DNA of 64,000 nucleotides from Calothrix sp. HK-06 (GTDB lineage: Bacteria; Cyanobacteriota; Cyanobacteriia; Cyanobacteriales; Nostocaceae), in NCBI RefSeq assembly GCF_001904745.1, contig NZ_MRCD01000042.1, forward strand, positions 1 through 64,000, read 5' to 3'. A program made the position numbers and the translations under genes. Below are positions 13,821-55,576 of the stretch, piece after piece. Below the pieces are notes generated by a model, which did no database searches, had not been told where the DNA came from, and saw only the letters and a program-made list of their open reading frames with translations. Position 1 is the stretch's first letter, and each line of letters begins with the position of its first letter.

Positions 13821-13920
13821 GGCAACGGATGTAACGGATGTAGCGGATGTAGCTTGAAGTTATCAACAAAGACTTGTTTAATAAAAGAAATTATCCGTTA
13901 CATCCGTTTTTATCCGTTGC
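13821..13920. repeat. AACGGAT repeats arranged as a long inverted repeat
   Basis: The left arm (13821-13850) contains three direct units, AACGGATGT, AACGGATGT and GCGGATGT. The right arm (13890-13920) carries the same units on the opposite strand (ATCCGTT, ATCCGTT, ATCCGTT). The arms are about 40 bases apart and can pair. It lies in the chlB upstream region. Other members are at 26550, 28252, 43440 and, inside ureC, at 55025. Confidence 0.75.
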
Positions 13921-25163: not shown

Positions 25164-26546
25164 ATGTTCGCAGTCACACGCCAGTTTATCCTAATGTCGC
25201 CTTCTGTTATAACCGTAGAAACAAAAGAAGACGTTTCGCTTTCTTTAGTTATTAACCAGATAAGTTCTGGTATCTCCTTACAGGGTCGCATACTCGTACC
25301 AGGTGATAAGTCTATATCTCATCGTGCCCTAATGTTGGGTGCTTTGGCACAAGGAGAAACGAAAATTCAAGGTTTACTTCTCGGAGAAGACCCTCGCAGC
25401 ACTGCGAGTTGCTTTCAAGCGATGGGGGCAAAAATTTCTCCGCTTAATAGTGAGATGGTAACAGTAACAGGTATTGGGCTTGGTAACTTGCTTGAACCCA
25501 TTGATATTCTCAATGCTGGCAACTCAGGTACGACGTTACGATTGATGCTGGGCATTCTAGCTTCGCACCCAGGTAGATTTTTTACTGTTACTGGCGATAG
25601 CTCACTACGTTCACGTCCCATGTCGCGCGTTGTTAAACCTTTGCAACAAATGGAAGCGCAAATTTGGGGGCGAAAAGATAATTCGCTTGCTCCCTTAGCT
25701 ATACAAGGCAAGGTACTCAAACCAATTCACTATCATTCACCAATTGCATCAGCGCAAGTCAAATCCTGCATTTTATTAGCTGCATTAATGACAGATGGCA
25801 AAACAACCGTTACTGAACCCGCAATCTCGCGTGACCACAGCGAACGGATGTTACGCGCATTTGGCGCCGACTTAGAAGTTGACCCTGATTCTAAAAGTGT
25901 AACTGTCACAGGCGGAAAATCGCTACATGGTCAAAACGTAATTGTACCTGGTGATATTAGTTCAGCAGCTTTTTGGCTCGTCGCTGGAGCTATTGTTCCT
26001 AATTCCGAATTGGTAATTGAAAACGTCGGTGTGAATCCAACTCGTACAGGAGTATTAGAAGCATTAGAAATGATGGGCGCCGACATTGAGTTACAAAACC
26101 AACGCGAAGTAGCAGGGGAACCAGTAGCCGATTTGCGCGTGCGTACTAGTAAATTAAAAAGTTGTACTATCTCAGGAGATATAATTCCTCGGTTGATTGA
26201 CGAAATTCCAATTTTAGCAGTAGCAGCCATATTTGCTGAAGGTACAACAATAATAAAAGACGCTGAAGAACTGCGAGTCAAAGAAAGCGACCGTATTGCT
26301 GTAATGGCAAAGCAATTAACTAAAATGGGCGCCAAAGTTACAGAACTTCCCGACGGGATGGAAATAACTGGTGGAACACCATTAACAGGGTCAGATGTGG
26401 ATAGTCATACAGACCACCGCATCGCCATGAGTTTAGCAATAGCTGCACTCAACGCTAAAGGAACTACAACAGTAAACCGTGCGGAAGCTGCAAGTATTTC
26501 GTACCCTGACTTTACGAATACTCTGCAAAAAATCATAGTCAGTTAA
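25164..26546 (+). CDS. aroA: 3-phosphoshikimate 1-carboxyvinyltransferase (EPSP synthase)
   Basis: Joins shikimate 3-phosphate and phosphoenolpyruvate in chorismate synthesis. 460 residues; motifs are in order: [20 protein letters not shown] near 44, [17 protein letters not shown] near 115, [14 protein letters not shown] near 150, [10 protein letters not shown] near 345 and [14 protein letters not shown] near 372. The pattern NAGNSGT (rather than NAGTA) is usual in bacteria. The first 30 residues extend beyond the family core; ATG 25194 is an alternative start, but ATG 25164 follows a plausible GGTAGG. The AACGGAT repeat follows the stop codon. Confidence 0.96.
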
Positions 26547-26549
26547 CTG

Positions 26550-26580
26550 GCAACGGATTATGAACGGATGTAAAGGATAA
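26550..26580. repeat. AACGGAT repeat copy after aroA
   Basis: GGCAACGGATTATGAACGGA, then TGTAAAGGATAA. The first 20 bases match the copy at 28252 exactly. It lies between aroA and the DUF2079 gene. Confidence 0.8.
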
Positions 26581-26624: not shown

Positions 26625-28265
26625 GTGACAAATACAGTGATAAAAATGTTACCAAAATTACATAATAATCCTGGTTTACGTTTAGCCAGTGGTGCAGCAC
26701 TCACATTTTTCATAATTTGTTCAATATTAAACCTACACCGTTACTGGAGTTATTACGCTTCATTTGACCAAGGATTATTTAATCAATTATTTTGGAACAG
26801 CGTTCACGGGAATTTATTTGAAAGTTCACTATCATCAACACTTTCAACCAACGTCGTTCATGCAAAACAGGCGCCTGAAGTATTTTACAGTCATATAGGA
26901 CAACATTTTAATCCTATTTTTTTACTATGGATGCCAATTTATGCAGTATTTCCTTACAATGAAACCTTAATTATTTTACAAGTTTTATTTGTAACATTTG
27001 CGGGCTTAGTATTATACGCATTAGCGCGACATTACTTACAACCAATGCTCGCAGCAATGACAACAGTCAGCTTTTACTGTACATCCACTGTAAATGCTCC
27101 CACCTTAGCCAACTTTCATGATATCAGCGCGGCGCCGTTATTACTATTTGCCGTCTTATTGGCAATGGAAAAGCAGAAATGGTGGTTATTTTTTCTATGT
27201 GCAATTTTACTACTCGCAGTTCGCCAAGATGTAGGGATATCCTTATTTAGTATTGGCTTTTATATGCTTGTGAGCAGACGTTTTCCCCGTATGGGTTTAG
27301 TAGTATGTTTTCTTAGTCTTGGTTATATACTGCTAGTAACCCAATATATCATGCCAAAATTTTCTGCTGATGTTGCTCGAAGAATGACAATAGAAAGATT
27401 TGGGCAGTTTACCACAAATGCAGAAGCATCTACAGTAGATATAATTTTGGCTATTTTAACTAACCCAATGCAATTATTAGGAGAACTTTTTCGTGGTTTT
27501 CCAAGTAAATTAGGCTATATAGTTGTTCATAGTTTAGCTTTAGGCATAATACCAGTTTTATCAAGTGCTACTTGGACAACCGCAGGCTTTCCTTTGCTTT
27601 ACTTATTTTTGCAGCGAGCGAGTAATGCTTTAAAAATTTCGATTCGCTATGCTATGCCTGTTGTACCAGGCATATTCTACGGAGCAATTATTTGGTGGTC
27701 AACAAGGCAAAATTTATATAAAAAACCCAAAATACGTCGTTTTTGGAAAACTTGCATTATTTTATCATTATTAGTATCAATTCTTGGCAATCAGAACAGC
27801 GTTTTTTATTTTATAATCCCAGATTCAATCAGCCCATTAGTATACATATCAATTCCAGAACAATGGAATCACATTCATCAATTTCAATCTTTAATTAAGC
27901 AAATACCCGCAAACGCTAGTGTGTCAGCGACTACTGAACTTATCCCCAAACTATCTAATCGTCGAGAAATCGTGCGTATACCAGAATTACGATTAATCAA
28001 CGACACACGACAAAGCATTACAGTAGAGTACATTATTGCTGACATTTGGAGGCATCATAAATACCAAATAGCGAAAAAACGCCCATTATTAGAAGATTTT
28101 TTCCAATTCATCGACGAAGTTACTAATAATCAACAATATGGAATAATTGGTTTTGCTGACGGAGTAATTCTACTTAAAAAATCTGCTATCTCAAATTCTC
28201 AAGCTACGAGCGCTTGGTTGGGTTTTCGTAAGAAGTCGGAAGTGGGCAGTGGCAACGGATTATGA
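26625..28265 (+). CDS. DUF2079 polytopic membrane protein
   Basis: 546 residues with about ten predicted transmembrane segments. The DUF2079 family pattern is visible: YASFDQGLFNQLFWNSVHGN, SHIGQHFNPIFLLWMPIYAV and ANFHDISAAPLLLFAVLLAM. The family resembles glycosyltransferase-C type membrane proteins; its substrate is unknown. GTG start at 26625 (an ATG follows at 26646). The last residues, GSGNGL, and the stop codon lie inside an AACGGAT repeat copy, so the native C terminus may have been altered. Confidence 0.85.
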   Translation: MTNTVIKMLPKLHNNPGLRLASGAALTFFIICSILNLHRYWSYYASFDQGLFNQLFWNSVHGNLFESSLSSTLSTNVVHAKQAPEVFYSHIGQHFNPIFLLWMPIYAVFPYNETLIILQVLFVTFAGLVLYALARHYLQPMLAAMTTVSFYCTSTVNAPTLANFHDISAAPLLLFAVLLAMEKQKWWLFFLCAILLLAVRQDVGISLFSIGFYMLVSRRFPRMGLVVCFLSLGYILLVTQYIMPKFSADVARRMTIERFGQFTTNAEASTVDIILAILTNPMQLLGELFRGFPSKLGYIVVHSLALGIIPVLSSATWTTAGFPLLYLFLQRASNALKISIRYAMPVVPGIFYGAIIWWSTRQNLYKKPKIRRFWKTCIILSLLVSILGNQNSVFYFIIPDSISPLVYISIPEQWNHIHQFQSLIKQIPANASVSATTELIPKLSNRREIVRIPELRLINDTRQSITVEYIIADIWRHHKYQIAKKRPLLEDFFQFIDEVTNNQQYGIIGFADGVILLKKSAISNSQATSAWLGFRKKSEVGSGNGL

Positions 28266-28282
28266 ACGGATATAACGGATGG
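28252..28282. repeat. AACGGAT repeat copy overlapping a stop codon
   Basis: GGCAACGGATTATGAACGGA, then TATAACGGATGG. The TGA stop of the DUF2079 gene is inside the repeat (26-bp unit shared with 26550). The encoded end GSGNGL resembles the GSNGL that the same repeat gives inside ureC. Confidence 0.8.
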
Positions 28283-43439: not shown

Positions 43440-43470
43440 TGCAACGGATACAACGGATATAACGAATGAG
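43440..43470. repeat. AACGGAT repeat copy after the RND gene
   Basis: GCAACGGATACAACGGATAT then AACGAATG. Three units, the last one decayed. Confidence 0.75.
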
Positions 43471-53225: not shown

Positions 53226-53744
53226 TTGGGTCTTGCTTTCAACCACAGACACTATAGCGGGAAACTGCTTGTTAAACCTTCTAAAAAGAAAGTCCTAGAC
53301 TTTTGTAAAACAATTGGTGAGGTGAAAAAAGGTCTAAATGGAGCAAATCAAGAAACGGTCATTAGGAAACTAAATCCAATTCTCAGGGATTTTGCTAATT
53401 ACTACAAAGGTGTGGTTAGCAAAAAAACTTTCTTCTATATCAAATCACGAGTATGGGAGTATCTTTGGAGACGTTGTAAGCGTAGACACCCAAACAAAAA
53501 TACAAAATGGGTACGGAAACGATACTTCCAAACTATTAAAGGTAACAAATGGACGTTTGCCTGTAAAATTTATGACCGTAGGGGAAAAGAAATAACAATC
53601 ACACTATACCCCATAGCAGAAACTACCATTGAACGCCATATAAAGGTCAAAGGTAACGTATCCCCAAACGACCCCACCCTAAAAGAATATTGGGACAAAC
53701 GTCACCAAAAACATGGTAAATCTTACTGGGAGATTGATGAATAA
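53226..53744 (+). pseudogene. 3' remnant of a group II intron reverse transcriptase/maturase
   Basis: The frame encodes LGLAFNHRHYSGKLLVKPSK, KLNPILRDFANYYKGVVSKK, KRRHPNKNTKWVRKRYFQTI and SPNDPTLKEYWDKRHQKHGK. This is the C-terminal maturase domain (X) and the HNH-like tail of group II intron proteins. The reverse transcriptase part is missing, with a stop just upstream at about 53215, and no domain V-like sequence is seen downstream before ureC. So it is a dead intron remnant. Confidence 0.85.
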
Positions 53745-53860: not shown

Positions 53861-55576
53861 ATGAGCTATCGAATGTCGCGCCGCGCGTATGCAGAAACTT
53901 TTGGCCCTACAGTTGGCGATAAAGTTCGTCTTGCTGACACAGAGTTATTTATCGAGGTTGAACGAGATTTAACTATATATGGCGATGAAGTAAAGTTTGG
54001 CGGTGGTAAAGTTATTCGCGATGGCATGGGACAGGCGCCTATCTCAAACCAAGACGGCGCCGTAGATGTTGTAATTACCAACGCTTTAATTCTTGACTGG
54101 TGGGGTATTGTTAAAGCTGATATTGGAATTAAAGACGGGAAGATATACAAAATTGGTAAAGCTGGCAATCCTTATATTCAAGACAATGTAGATATTATTA
54201 TTGGGCCAGGAACCGAAGCGATAGCAGGTGAGGGAATGATTCTCACTGCTGGTGGTATTGATACTCACATACATTTTATTTGCCCGCAGCAAATAGAAGT
54301 CGCTATAGCATCGGGTATTACAACGATGATAGGTGGTGGAACTGGGCCTGCTGCGGGTACAAATGCGACTACTTGCACGCCGGGACCTTGGAATATTTAC
54401 CGGATGCTACAAGCTGCTGATGCTTTTCCAATGAATTTGGGATTTATGGGGAAGGGCAATAGCAGCCAACCTCAAGGACTTGTTGAACAAATTGAAGCGG
54501 GTGCAATGGGGTTGAAGTTACACGAAGATTGGGGAACAACACCTGCTGCTATCGATACTTGTTTGAGCGTTGCTGATGAATATGATGTGCAGGTGGCAAT
54601 ACATACTGATACTCTCAACGAAGCTGGTTTTGTTGAAGATACTATTGCCGCTTTCAAGAACCGTGTTATCCATACTTACCATACCGAAGGCGCCGGAGGA
54701 GGACATGCACCCGACATTATTAAAGTATGTGGCGAGGCGAATGTTCTTCCATCTTCGACTAACCCAACTCGCCCCTATACTGTAAATACTCTTGATGAAC
54801 ACCTCGACATGTTAATGGTGTGTCATCACCTGGATGCGGGTATTCCTGAAGATGTGGCTTTTGCTGAGTCGCGTATTCGTCGCGAAACTATTGCCGCTGA
54901 GGATATTTTGCACGATTTAGGCGCCTTTAGTATGATTTCCTCTGACTCGCAGGCGATGGGACGAGTGGGTGAGGTGATTATTCGTACTTGGCAAACAGGG
55001 CATAAAATGAAAGTGCAGCGTGGTAGCAACGGATTACCAACGGATGTAGCGGATAATGATAATTTTCGGGCGAAGCGGTATGTGGCAAAGTATACGATTA
55101 ATCCAGCTATTACGCATGGAATTGCTCAGTATGTGGGTTCTGTGGAAGAAGGTAAAATTGCTGATTTATGTTTGTGGCGCCCTGCTTTTTTTGGTGTAAA
55201 ACCAGAGATGGTAATTAAAGGCGGAATGATTGCTTGGGCACAGATGGGTGATGCAAATGCTAGTATTCCTACACCTCAACCTGTGCATATGCGTCCAATG
55301 TTTGGCAGTTTTGGCGGCGCCTGTCATGCAACTTCATTAACTTTTGTTTCACAAGAAGCGTTAAAACGAGATATACCCAATCAATTAAAACTGCAAAAAC
55401 GAGTCGTTGCAGTTTCAGGTATTCGCAACTTAAGCAAGCGGGATATGAAATTAAACGACGCTATGCCACATATCGAAGTTGACCCAGAAACTTACGAAGT
55501 GCGTGCGGATGGTGAGTTACTTACATGTGAACCCGCAACGATTTTACCAATGGCACAACGATATTTCTTGTTTTAA
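53861..55576 (+). CDS. ureC: Urease alpha subunit
   Basis: Catalytic subunit that hydrolyses urea to ammonia and carbamate. 571 residues. Nickel ligands His136 and His138 (DTHIHF), carbamylated Lys219 (GLKLHED), the mobile flap Cys321-His322 (MVCHHLD) and Asp near 362 (SSDSQAMGR) are all in place. SD AAGGAG at 53848 supports ATG 53861; the frame upstream reaches 53753. Residues about 390-400 ([14 protein letters not shown]) are encoded by an AACGGAT repeat (55025-55057), making the protein two residues longer than usual there. ureEFG are not in the window. Confidence 0.97.
55025..55057. repeat. AACGGAT repeat copy within ureC
   Basis: AGCAACGGATTACCAACGGA, then TGTAGCGGATAAT: three units at 55028, 55039 and 55049. 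It closely matches the intergenic copies at 26550 and 28252 and stays in frame. Confidence 0.85.

Follow-up and report, generated by a model that had tools for sequence, protein, structure and literature searches.

How does a short repeat that is scattered through a genome come to lie, in frame, inside the gene of a conserved enzyme? The question is raised by ureC in the window, the whole 64,000-nucleotide stretch of Calothrix sp. HK-06 DNA analyzed here, in which a preliminary description had placed three units of an AACGGAT repeat within the reading frame. The DNA bears this out in both position and frame: residues 389-399 of UreC are encoded by AGC AAC GGA TTA CCA ACG GAT GTA GCG GAT AAT (55025-55057), and codons 390-398 (55028-55054) consist of the sequence AACGGATTACCAACGGATGTAGCGGAT, which matches one arm of a dispersed repeat that we call E1. 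The features of the gene are as follows.

53861..55576, + strand: ureC, urease catalytic (alpha) subunit, 571 aa (ORF; TIGR01792, 1003 bits; PDB relatives)
55025..55057, + strand: loop codons 389-399, a coil between predicted helices 372-387 and 401-411
55028..55054, + strand: left arm of repeat E1, AACGGAT-TACC-AACGGAT-GTA-GCGGAT, codons 390-398

Compared with the 567-aa PDB urease alpha chains (1ejw and others), which we take to be those of Klebsiella, the numbering of the window UreC is shifted by +2 before the loop and by +4 after it. Alignment places the two additional residues within the loop, in agreement with the earlier proposal that a two-residue loop excess accounts for the change. 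Across the window, AACGGAT occurs 17 times, against 6.99 expected from 100 shuffles (sd 2.87, maximum 14). Directly upstream of ureC, at 53226-53744, lies a remnant of a group II intron maturase that matches the C-terminal part of TIGR04416 at 40.9 bits, far under the cut-off of 300. Antisense to ureC, at 54019-54302 on the minus strand, Rfam 5'_ureB_sRNA matches at 87.5 bits (gathering 40), which may reflect merely the conserved ureC coding sequence.

A search of the genome, as the preliminary description had suggested, shows that the repeat is abundant. The 9.99-Mb genome of the window (G000) matches the pattern AACGGATN4AACGGATN3RCGGAT exactly at 77 places and a reversed-pattern control at none; the shorter core ACGGATGTNACGGAT has 326 matches. 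From 29 of the 77 copies read with their flanks, and from position counts on all 77, E1 consists of TGGC-AACGGATKATRAACGGATGTAACGGAT and an inverted arm (ATCCGTTACATCCGTTGTATCCGTTGC or similar), separated by a spacer that differs in length between copies; a 30th locus, L017, stands outside the 29. The units start 9-11 nt apart in inverted arms. An inverted partner lies close by in 25 of the 29 copies, so E1 is a palindromic repeat; the other four (L004, L009, L019, L029) have no ATCCGT within 400 nt before or 500 nt after them, so single arms also exist. When five intergenic or gene-end elements were folded as DNA, four gave strong hairpins (z -7.6, -4.4, -7.4 and -9.3) and one, at 28248, a weak one (z -1.8). 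In ureC only the left arm is present, and DNA folding found no hairpin there (z +2.1).

By these properties E1 is REP/REPIN-like: its arm is short (27 nt, within the 20-40 nt of such repeats), its copy number is high, it is mostly extragenic, and it shows inverted pairing or hairpins. It lacks a terminal GTAG or CGTC tetranucleotide, the consensus before the arm being TGGC, then AACGGAT. Inverted arms were observed, where a place among the MITEs would call for terminal inverted repeats together with a target-site duplication. In ureC, E1 has the sequence hallmarks of a protein-coding palindromic repeat, namely a dispersed family found in frame in a conserved gene whose frame stays open.

Most copies (71/77) are not wholly within an ORF of at least 100 aa, and the one in ureC is the only copy inside the body of a conserved gene. 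Another five fall within the first codons (0 to 14) of ORFs of at least 100 aa, where the true start codon may be further downstream. E1 is frequent at gene ends. Counting open frames of at least 100 codons, with start codons not required, we found a frame that stops between 8 nt before the arm and the arm end at 31 of the 77 copies; at 21 of the 77, all in one orientation, the stop is inside the arm. The tails of these 21 frames read NG-stop (7), NGL-stop (5), ATDxxRM-stop (8) or otherwise (1). ureC is read in the NGL-stop frame, and one of those five copies is in the window. Besides ureC, the window holds these E1 features:

13824..13918, strand unassigned: E1 palindrome, both arms, the left arm with 9-nt spacing (hairpin z -7.6)
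26552..26578, + strand: E1 copy just past the stop of ORF 25164-26546, third unit AAGGAT (hairpin z -4.4)
28254..28280, + strand: E1 copy whose TTATGA linker gives the stop of ORF 26625-28265 (...GNGL-stop), in the frame used in ureC (weak hairpin, z -1.8)
43443..43466, + strand: partial E1 array (AACGGATACAACGGATATAACGAA)

The second and third of these had been described, near 26550 and 28252, as intergenic copies with the unit order and spacing of ureC. The spacing is indeed the same; the third unit at 26552 differs, and the copy at 28254 is not purely intergenic, since an ORF ends inside it.

To what extent could the match in ureC be fortuitous? In the family sample, 135 of 145 genomes have a UreC match and 133 enter the loop counts, G020 and G068 having been dropped for a broken ureC. 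(These two are both of the family-sample genomes of genus g15, and their ureC genes, L165 and L166, are broken by stops.) In the loop of thirteen of the 133 UreCs, that of the window among them, 19-25 of 27 bases agree with E1, and the best of 445,609 27-mers elsewhere in the ureC genes reaches 17 of 27. No stop lies inside the E1 match in any of the 13. As the loop peptide is itself common to the carriers, we applied a codon-conditional test, in which each peptide was recoded with synonymous codons 200,000 times under gene-weighted codon usage. Recoding reaches the observed match with P 5e-5 in the window, 3.5e-5 in G003, 5.7e-4 in G028, 1.6e-3 to 2.7e-3 in the four g47 genomes and 5.6e-4 in G126. 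Thus, in 12 of the 13 UreCs the codons are nearer to E1 than the peptide demands (P under 0.003, values within one genus not being independent). The exception is G055, with codons no nearer to E1 than its peptide predicts (P 0.27). The preliminary description had held that the same residues with unrelated codons in all relatives would point to chance; the relatives show the opposite, G055 excepted. The DNA of ureC resembles the left arm of E1 far beyond chance, and on the genome control, the in-gene background and the codon-conditional test together we rejected a chance resemblance.

Of 217 family genomes, 14 have the E1 loop type, and below the fourteenth the score drops from 43.1 to 32.9 bits. 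The carriers are six of the seven genomes of the window's genus (g1), G028, four g47 genomes, G055 and two g12 genomes, and they are spread over five genera: g1, g23, g47, g50 and g12. The seventh congener, G004, has a different repeat (E2, below) in the same loop. This distribution rules out a recent insertion missing from sister strains; the preliminary description had proposed testing whether closely related strains lack the insertion, and six of the seven congeners carry it. Dispersed E1 is distributed otherwise. The exact 27-nt pattern occurs in 8 of 145 family genomes, these being all seven congeners and G028. The core ACGGATGTNACGGAT occurs in 25 of 145; single core matches mean little, because the reversed control has one match each in 14 of 145. 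Three g47 genomes have one core match each, within their own ureC loop, and the fourth has none, so that with the exact core pattern no dispersed E1 was found in the four g47 genomes. By eye, the core matches include degenerate E1 palindromes in G018 (14 matches), G011 (4), G063, G093 and G037 (2 each), and also in G066 and G055, where the single match is noise by count alone and the call rests on the flanks. At L371 in G011, where an E1 copy looked as if it might be coding, there is no ORF of 100 aa, and we discarded it. Collectively, the E1 family appears older than g1, and ureC appears to carry a relic of E1 in genomes without detectable dispersed copies.

The carriers fall at separate places on a quick UreC tree computed with the loop left out, on which 36 of 130 inner branches are drawn open. 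A single clade of 13 E1-loop carriers plus G004 is mildly rejected (p-AU 0.029). With the E1 loops scattered in this way, vertical inheritance from one insertion would need several losses or replacements, or else gene conversion or transfer of the loop. Outside the loop the tree keeps many genera together. One departure is G126 (g12), whose UreC groups with G055 and g6, away from five other g12 genomes, which suggests that ureC can move or be replaced; G478, also of g12, has the same loop type as G126.

We also compared loops (counted from VQRG to AK) with other repeats, scoring each loop against repeat consensuses and using as thresholds the highest scores among 3,000 in-gene segments. The usual loop has 19 residues in most of the non-cyanobacterial UreCs read (71 of 80 loci parsed); in the family the loop ranges from 18 to 73 residues. 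A repeat is carried by 33 of 133 family loops: E1 in 13, E2 forward in 6, E2 reverse in 9 and E3 in 5. The 100 loops without one include G137, which scored 26 against an E1 threshold of 25 and was set aside. Weak E2 calls are G070 (33) and G097 (36) against a threshold of 28, and G025 (33) against 31.

E2 is a CCCTCTCCTNNNAGGAGAGGGG palindrome, present in 68 of 145 family genomes, and flanks such as GACCTCTCCCCCAA are common to the ureC inserts and the 12 dispersed copies that we retrieved. It runs one way in the ureC loop of some lineages and the other way in that of others, a sign of separate insertions (or of an inversion). Among the 15 genomes with an E2 loop, 10 have the exact E2 core outside ureC; the others are G036, G025, G070 and G097, with none at all, and G053, with the ureC copy alone. 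E3 is a CCCCCCTT-AAGGGGGG palindrome, present in 58 of 140 genomes; of the five genomes with an E3 loop, four have exact E3 (all but G095). Congeners differ: G115 carries E2 whereas G027, G075, G100 and G136 have an 18-aa loop, G103 contrasts with G128, and G004 with E2 contrasts with six congeners with E1. An apparent nested insert lies in frame within the E3-bearing loop of G063 (L163), and in G039 (L164) a tandem array makes, again in frame, a 73-aa loop. By parsimony, the loop changed class at least 16 times on the UreC tree.

Loops outside the family were sampled from the same order as the 22 genomes with the worst loop scores among those listed, a choice biased by design; G430 and G451 had no readable loop, leaving 20. 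In this sample 19 of the 20 loops are 35-73 aa long and 17 contain a recognizable repeat: E3 cores in nine, ACGGGCAAGATGCCCGT two to four times in four, E2 in three and a CTCCCTA heptamer array in one. The loops of G348, G360 and G379 match none of the repeat patterns. In the family, the 21-aa loops of g4 and other genera, for example LNPQGEEQRADNFR, share stretches like GGAGAGGxGCAAAGAGCAGA with E2-bearing loops, and on this likeness they may be decayed E2; the E2 scores of g4 loops are under the threshold of 28 (G111 27, G124 23, G141 19).

What sets this loop apart from the rest of the enzyme? Departures from the commonest length among the 133 UreCs fall at residues 391-393 (59) and 394-396 (74), against 8 at residue 39, 13 at residue 64, 2 at residue 108 and 2 at residue 1. 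No other UreC site is as variable in length. In a predicted structure (mean pLDDT 79.9, pTM 0.88), helices 372-387 and 401-411 are joined by a coil that corresponds to the loop. Block 391-400 has a pLDDT of 65, and since values go down to 43 in other blocks, pLDDT by itself is no distinguishing mark of the loop. Ten residues that bind the metal or act in catalysis, by their roles in Klebsiella urease, are identical in all 133 UreCs, repeat-bearing or not. To judge from this conservation, the enzyme with a repeat-derived loop probably still works. Tolerance, combined with repeated exposure to mobile or amplifying repeats, is the simplest reading; a landing preference or a benefit is possible.

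Our data are thus best described by a model in which residues 390-398 of UreC are a fossil of E1, a small dispersed palindromic element, and we hold this to be likely. E1, or one arm of it, probably entered the ureC loop in an ancestor of the carrier genera, because the loop is shared with g47, where dispersed E1 was not found. The loop seems to have been replaced long ago by a single palindrome arm, rather than lengthened by a young insertion. In the frame used in ureC, canonical E1 reads N-G-L and then stops (TTA TGA); this is the frame that closes five open frames in the window's genome, one of them inside the window. An insertion would therefore be tolerable only as a variant with the stop codon changed. 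At that codon G126 and G478 have GGA, which a single base change separates from TGA in the linker TTATGA, and the remaining carriers have GCA or CCA, the linker TTAGCA being common to G003, G028 and g47; these could be the variant codons that took the place of TGA. The preliminary description was largely right about the origin of the loop: the segment derives from a dispersed repeat, the gene is open and the catalytic residues are intact. A young two-residue insertion, however, does not describe the event. What lies in ureC is a single arm of a hairpin repeat, of greater age than had been assumed, and one case of a broader pattern.

That pattern is one in which a single UreC loop seems to have been rebuilt repeatedly, in frame, from short repeats of several unrelated families in cyanobacteria. 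Persistence would follow if this inter-helix loop takes almost any in-frame insert while inserts elsewhere in the gene are purged. Repeats may also tend to land in, or expand beside, existing repeats, as the arrays and the apparent nested insert would suggest, and the loop might turn over from one repeat family to another. Taken further, the loop could be a self-renewing landing site. At least four unrelated families (E1, E2 in both orientations, E3 and the ACGGGCAAGATGCCCGT palindrome), together with a heptamer array, would have entered it without breaking the frame, displaced each other and grown into arrays, and decayed repeat DNA would then account for much of the variety of loops seen in the family, possibly even for ordinary 21-aa loops such as LNPQGEEQRADNFR. 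On this extended form of the model our judgement is evenly divided.

Other histories could produce the same loops. E1 might have entered ureC once, in one lineage, with the loop then spreading by short-tract gene conversion or by horizontal transfer of ureC. The AU test against one clade, the unlike ureC of G126 among its g12 congeners as a sign that the gene can move, and the shared TTAGCA linker all speak for such a spread; it requires several transfers, however, and many genera hold together on the UreC tree outside the loop, quick as that tree is. We regard it as possible, while leaning against it. A reversed direction, with the ureC loop as the source of a piece that was copied out and amplified as E1 in g1 and its neighbors, would explain why g47 keeps the loop without dispersed E1 at the exact core pattern and why E1 is abundant only in g1. 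Yet dispersed E1 has two palindromic arms and carries TGGC ahead of the arm, whereas a single arm is all that ureC contains; degenerate E1-like palindromes occur in genera with other ureC loops (G018, g6, G037), and unrelated repeats enter the same loop elsewhere, so that we find this direction decidedly unlikely.

A native coding loop (KGLATDVTD) could by chance resemble the repeat and have been sharpened by drift in g1, and nearly the same peptide in relatives without detectable dispersed E1, together with the non-E1 codons of G055, is what one would then expect. Against it stand the 19-25 of 27 matching bases where the background maximum is 17 in 445,609, the codon-conditional P of 3.5e-5 to 2.7e-3 in 12 of 13 UreCs (not independent within a genus) and the restriction of the loop type to 14 of 217 family genomes, clearly set off by score; such a coincidence is very improbable. 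Positive selection for long repeat-made extensions, acting through partner binding, assembly or regulation and going beyond tolerance, would account for the repeated gain, from several families, of loops up to 73 aa long (VQRG to AK). The loop peptides, however, are unrelated to one another and differ even when one element is read in its two orientations; tolerance explains this better than function does, and we consider selection of this kind unlikely. The reading that we prefer remains the entry of an E1 arm into a permissive loop.

In-frame insertions of REPs and MITEs are already known. Rickettsia palindromic elements (RPE) are small palindromic repeats fused in frame within conserved genes, with a gmk product that is translated and active (PMC2229807), and in-frame MITE fusions are called not unusual in a 2024 review (PMC10969869); MITEs inside genes of Anabaena sp. 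90 are reported with disrupted ORFs (PMC3542288). RPE resemble E1 in ureC as a palindromic repeat in frame inside a conserved gene. They differ in being 105-146 bp long and in many genes, whereas here a 27-nt arm and other, unrelated short repeats occupy one loop of one gene in several cyanobacterial families. Among the open-licence papers listed for urease and repeats in cyanobacteria, and for intragenic repeats in cyanobacteria more broadly, there was no report of repeats in a cyanobacterial urease loop in the titles and the beginnings of abstracts, and several repeat families in one enzyme loop were likewise not found.

GTAG/CGTC REPs (PMC3733652) are short hairpin repeats that occur inside genes and supply stop codons to flanking ORFs; different REPs lie at about the same site in recB of X. 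campestris and X. oryzae, and GTAG REPs occur in cyanobacteria. Urease is not named in the main text of that paper. E2 is similar to a GTAG REP in that its palindrome can take the form GTAGGAGAGGGG, and it is unmatched to the numbered GTAG families; E1, unlike these REPs, has no GTAG/CGTC tag. TAACTGA direct repeats (PMC4679880) are heptamer sets in some cyanobacteria that in the main genome of that paper lie mostly just upstream of start codons. Their sequence is other than that of E1, and the word 'palindrome' is absent from the main text. STRRs (PMC2670836) are very small repeats of filamentous cyanobacteria, built of 7-bp tandem heptamers, with hairpin potential. The small dispersed repeats (SDR) of filamentous cyanobacteria were reportedly the subject of work by Elhai in 2008. 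E1 is like STRRs, and by their description like SDRs, in being a very small dispersed cyanobacterial repeat with 7-bp units and hairpin potential; it differs from STRRs in that its units start 9-11 nt apart in inverted arms where STRRs are tandem heptamers.

The ureC loops provide a natural series of repeat DNA becoming protein in one well-studied enzyme with solved structures. The series comprises near full-length elements, arrays, weak remnants, a shared old case and congeners lacking some inserts. It makes testable whether repeats target the site or are merely tolerated there, and how non-coding repeats turn into protein segments. Small repeats of cyanobacteria are not confined to intergenic DNA. 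The gene is used as an environmental marker, and indels in its loop are not clean phylogenetic characters.

E3 was also seen in other open frames. In G014 (L400, positions 2-229), an open frame (...YFYAAQDADSFTPPYQGGDKGGSEPEEGAFYVWT...) that resembles another gene contains an E3 palindrome; Pfam gives no family for L400, which is a short piece, or for L401. At L396 and L397 (G011 and G063), in-frame E3 arrays follow just after a P-loop ATPase-like motif, with AAA/STAND matches below the Pfam cut-offs.
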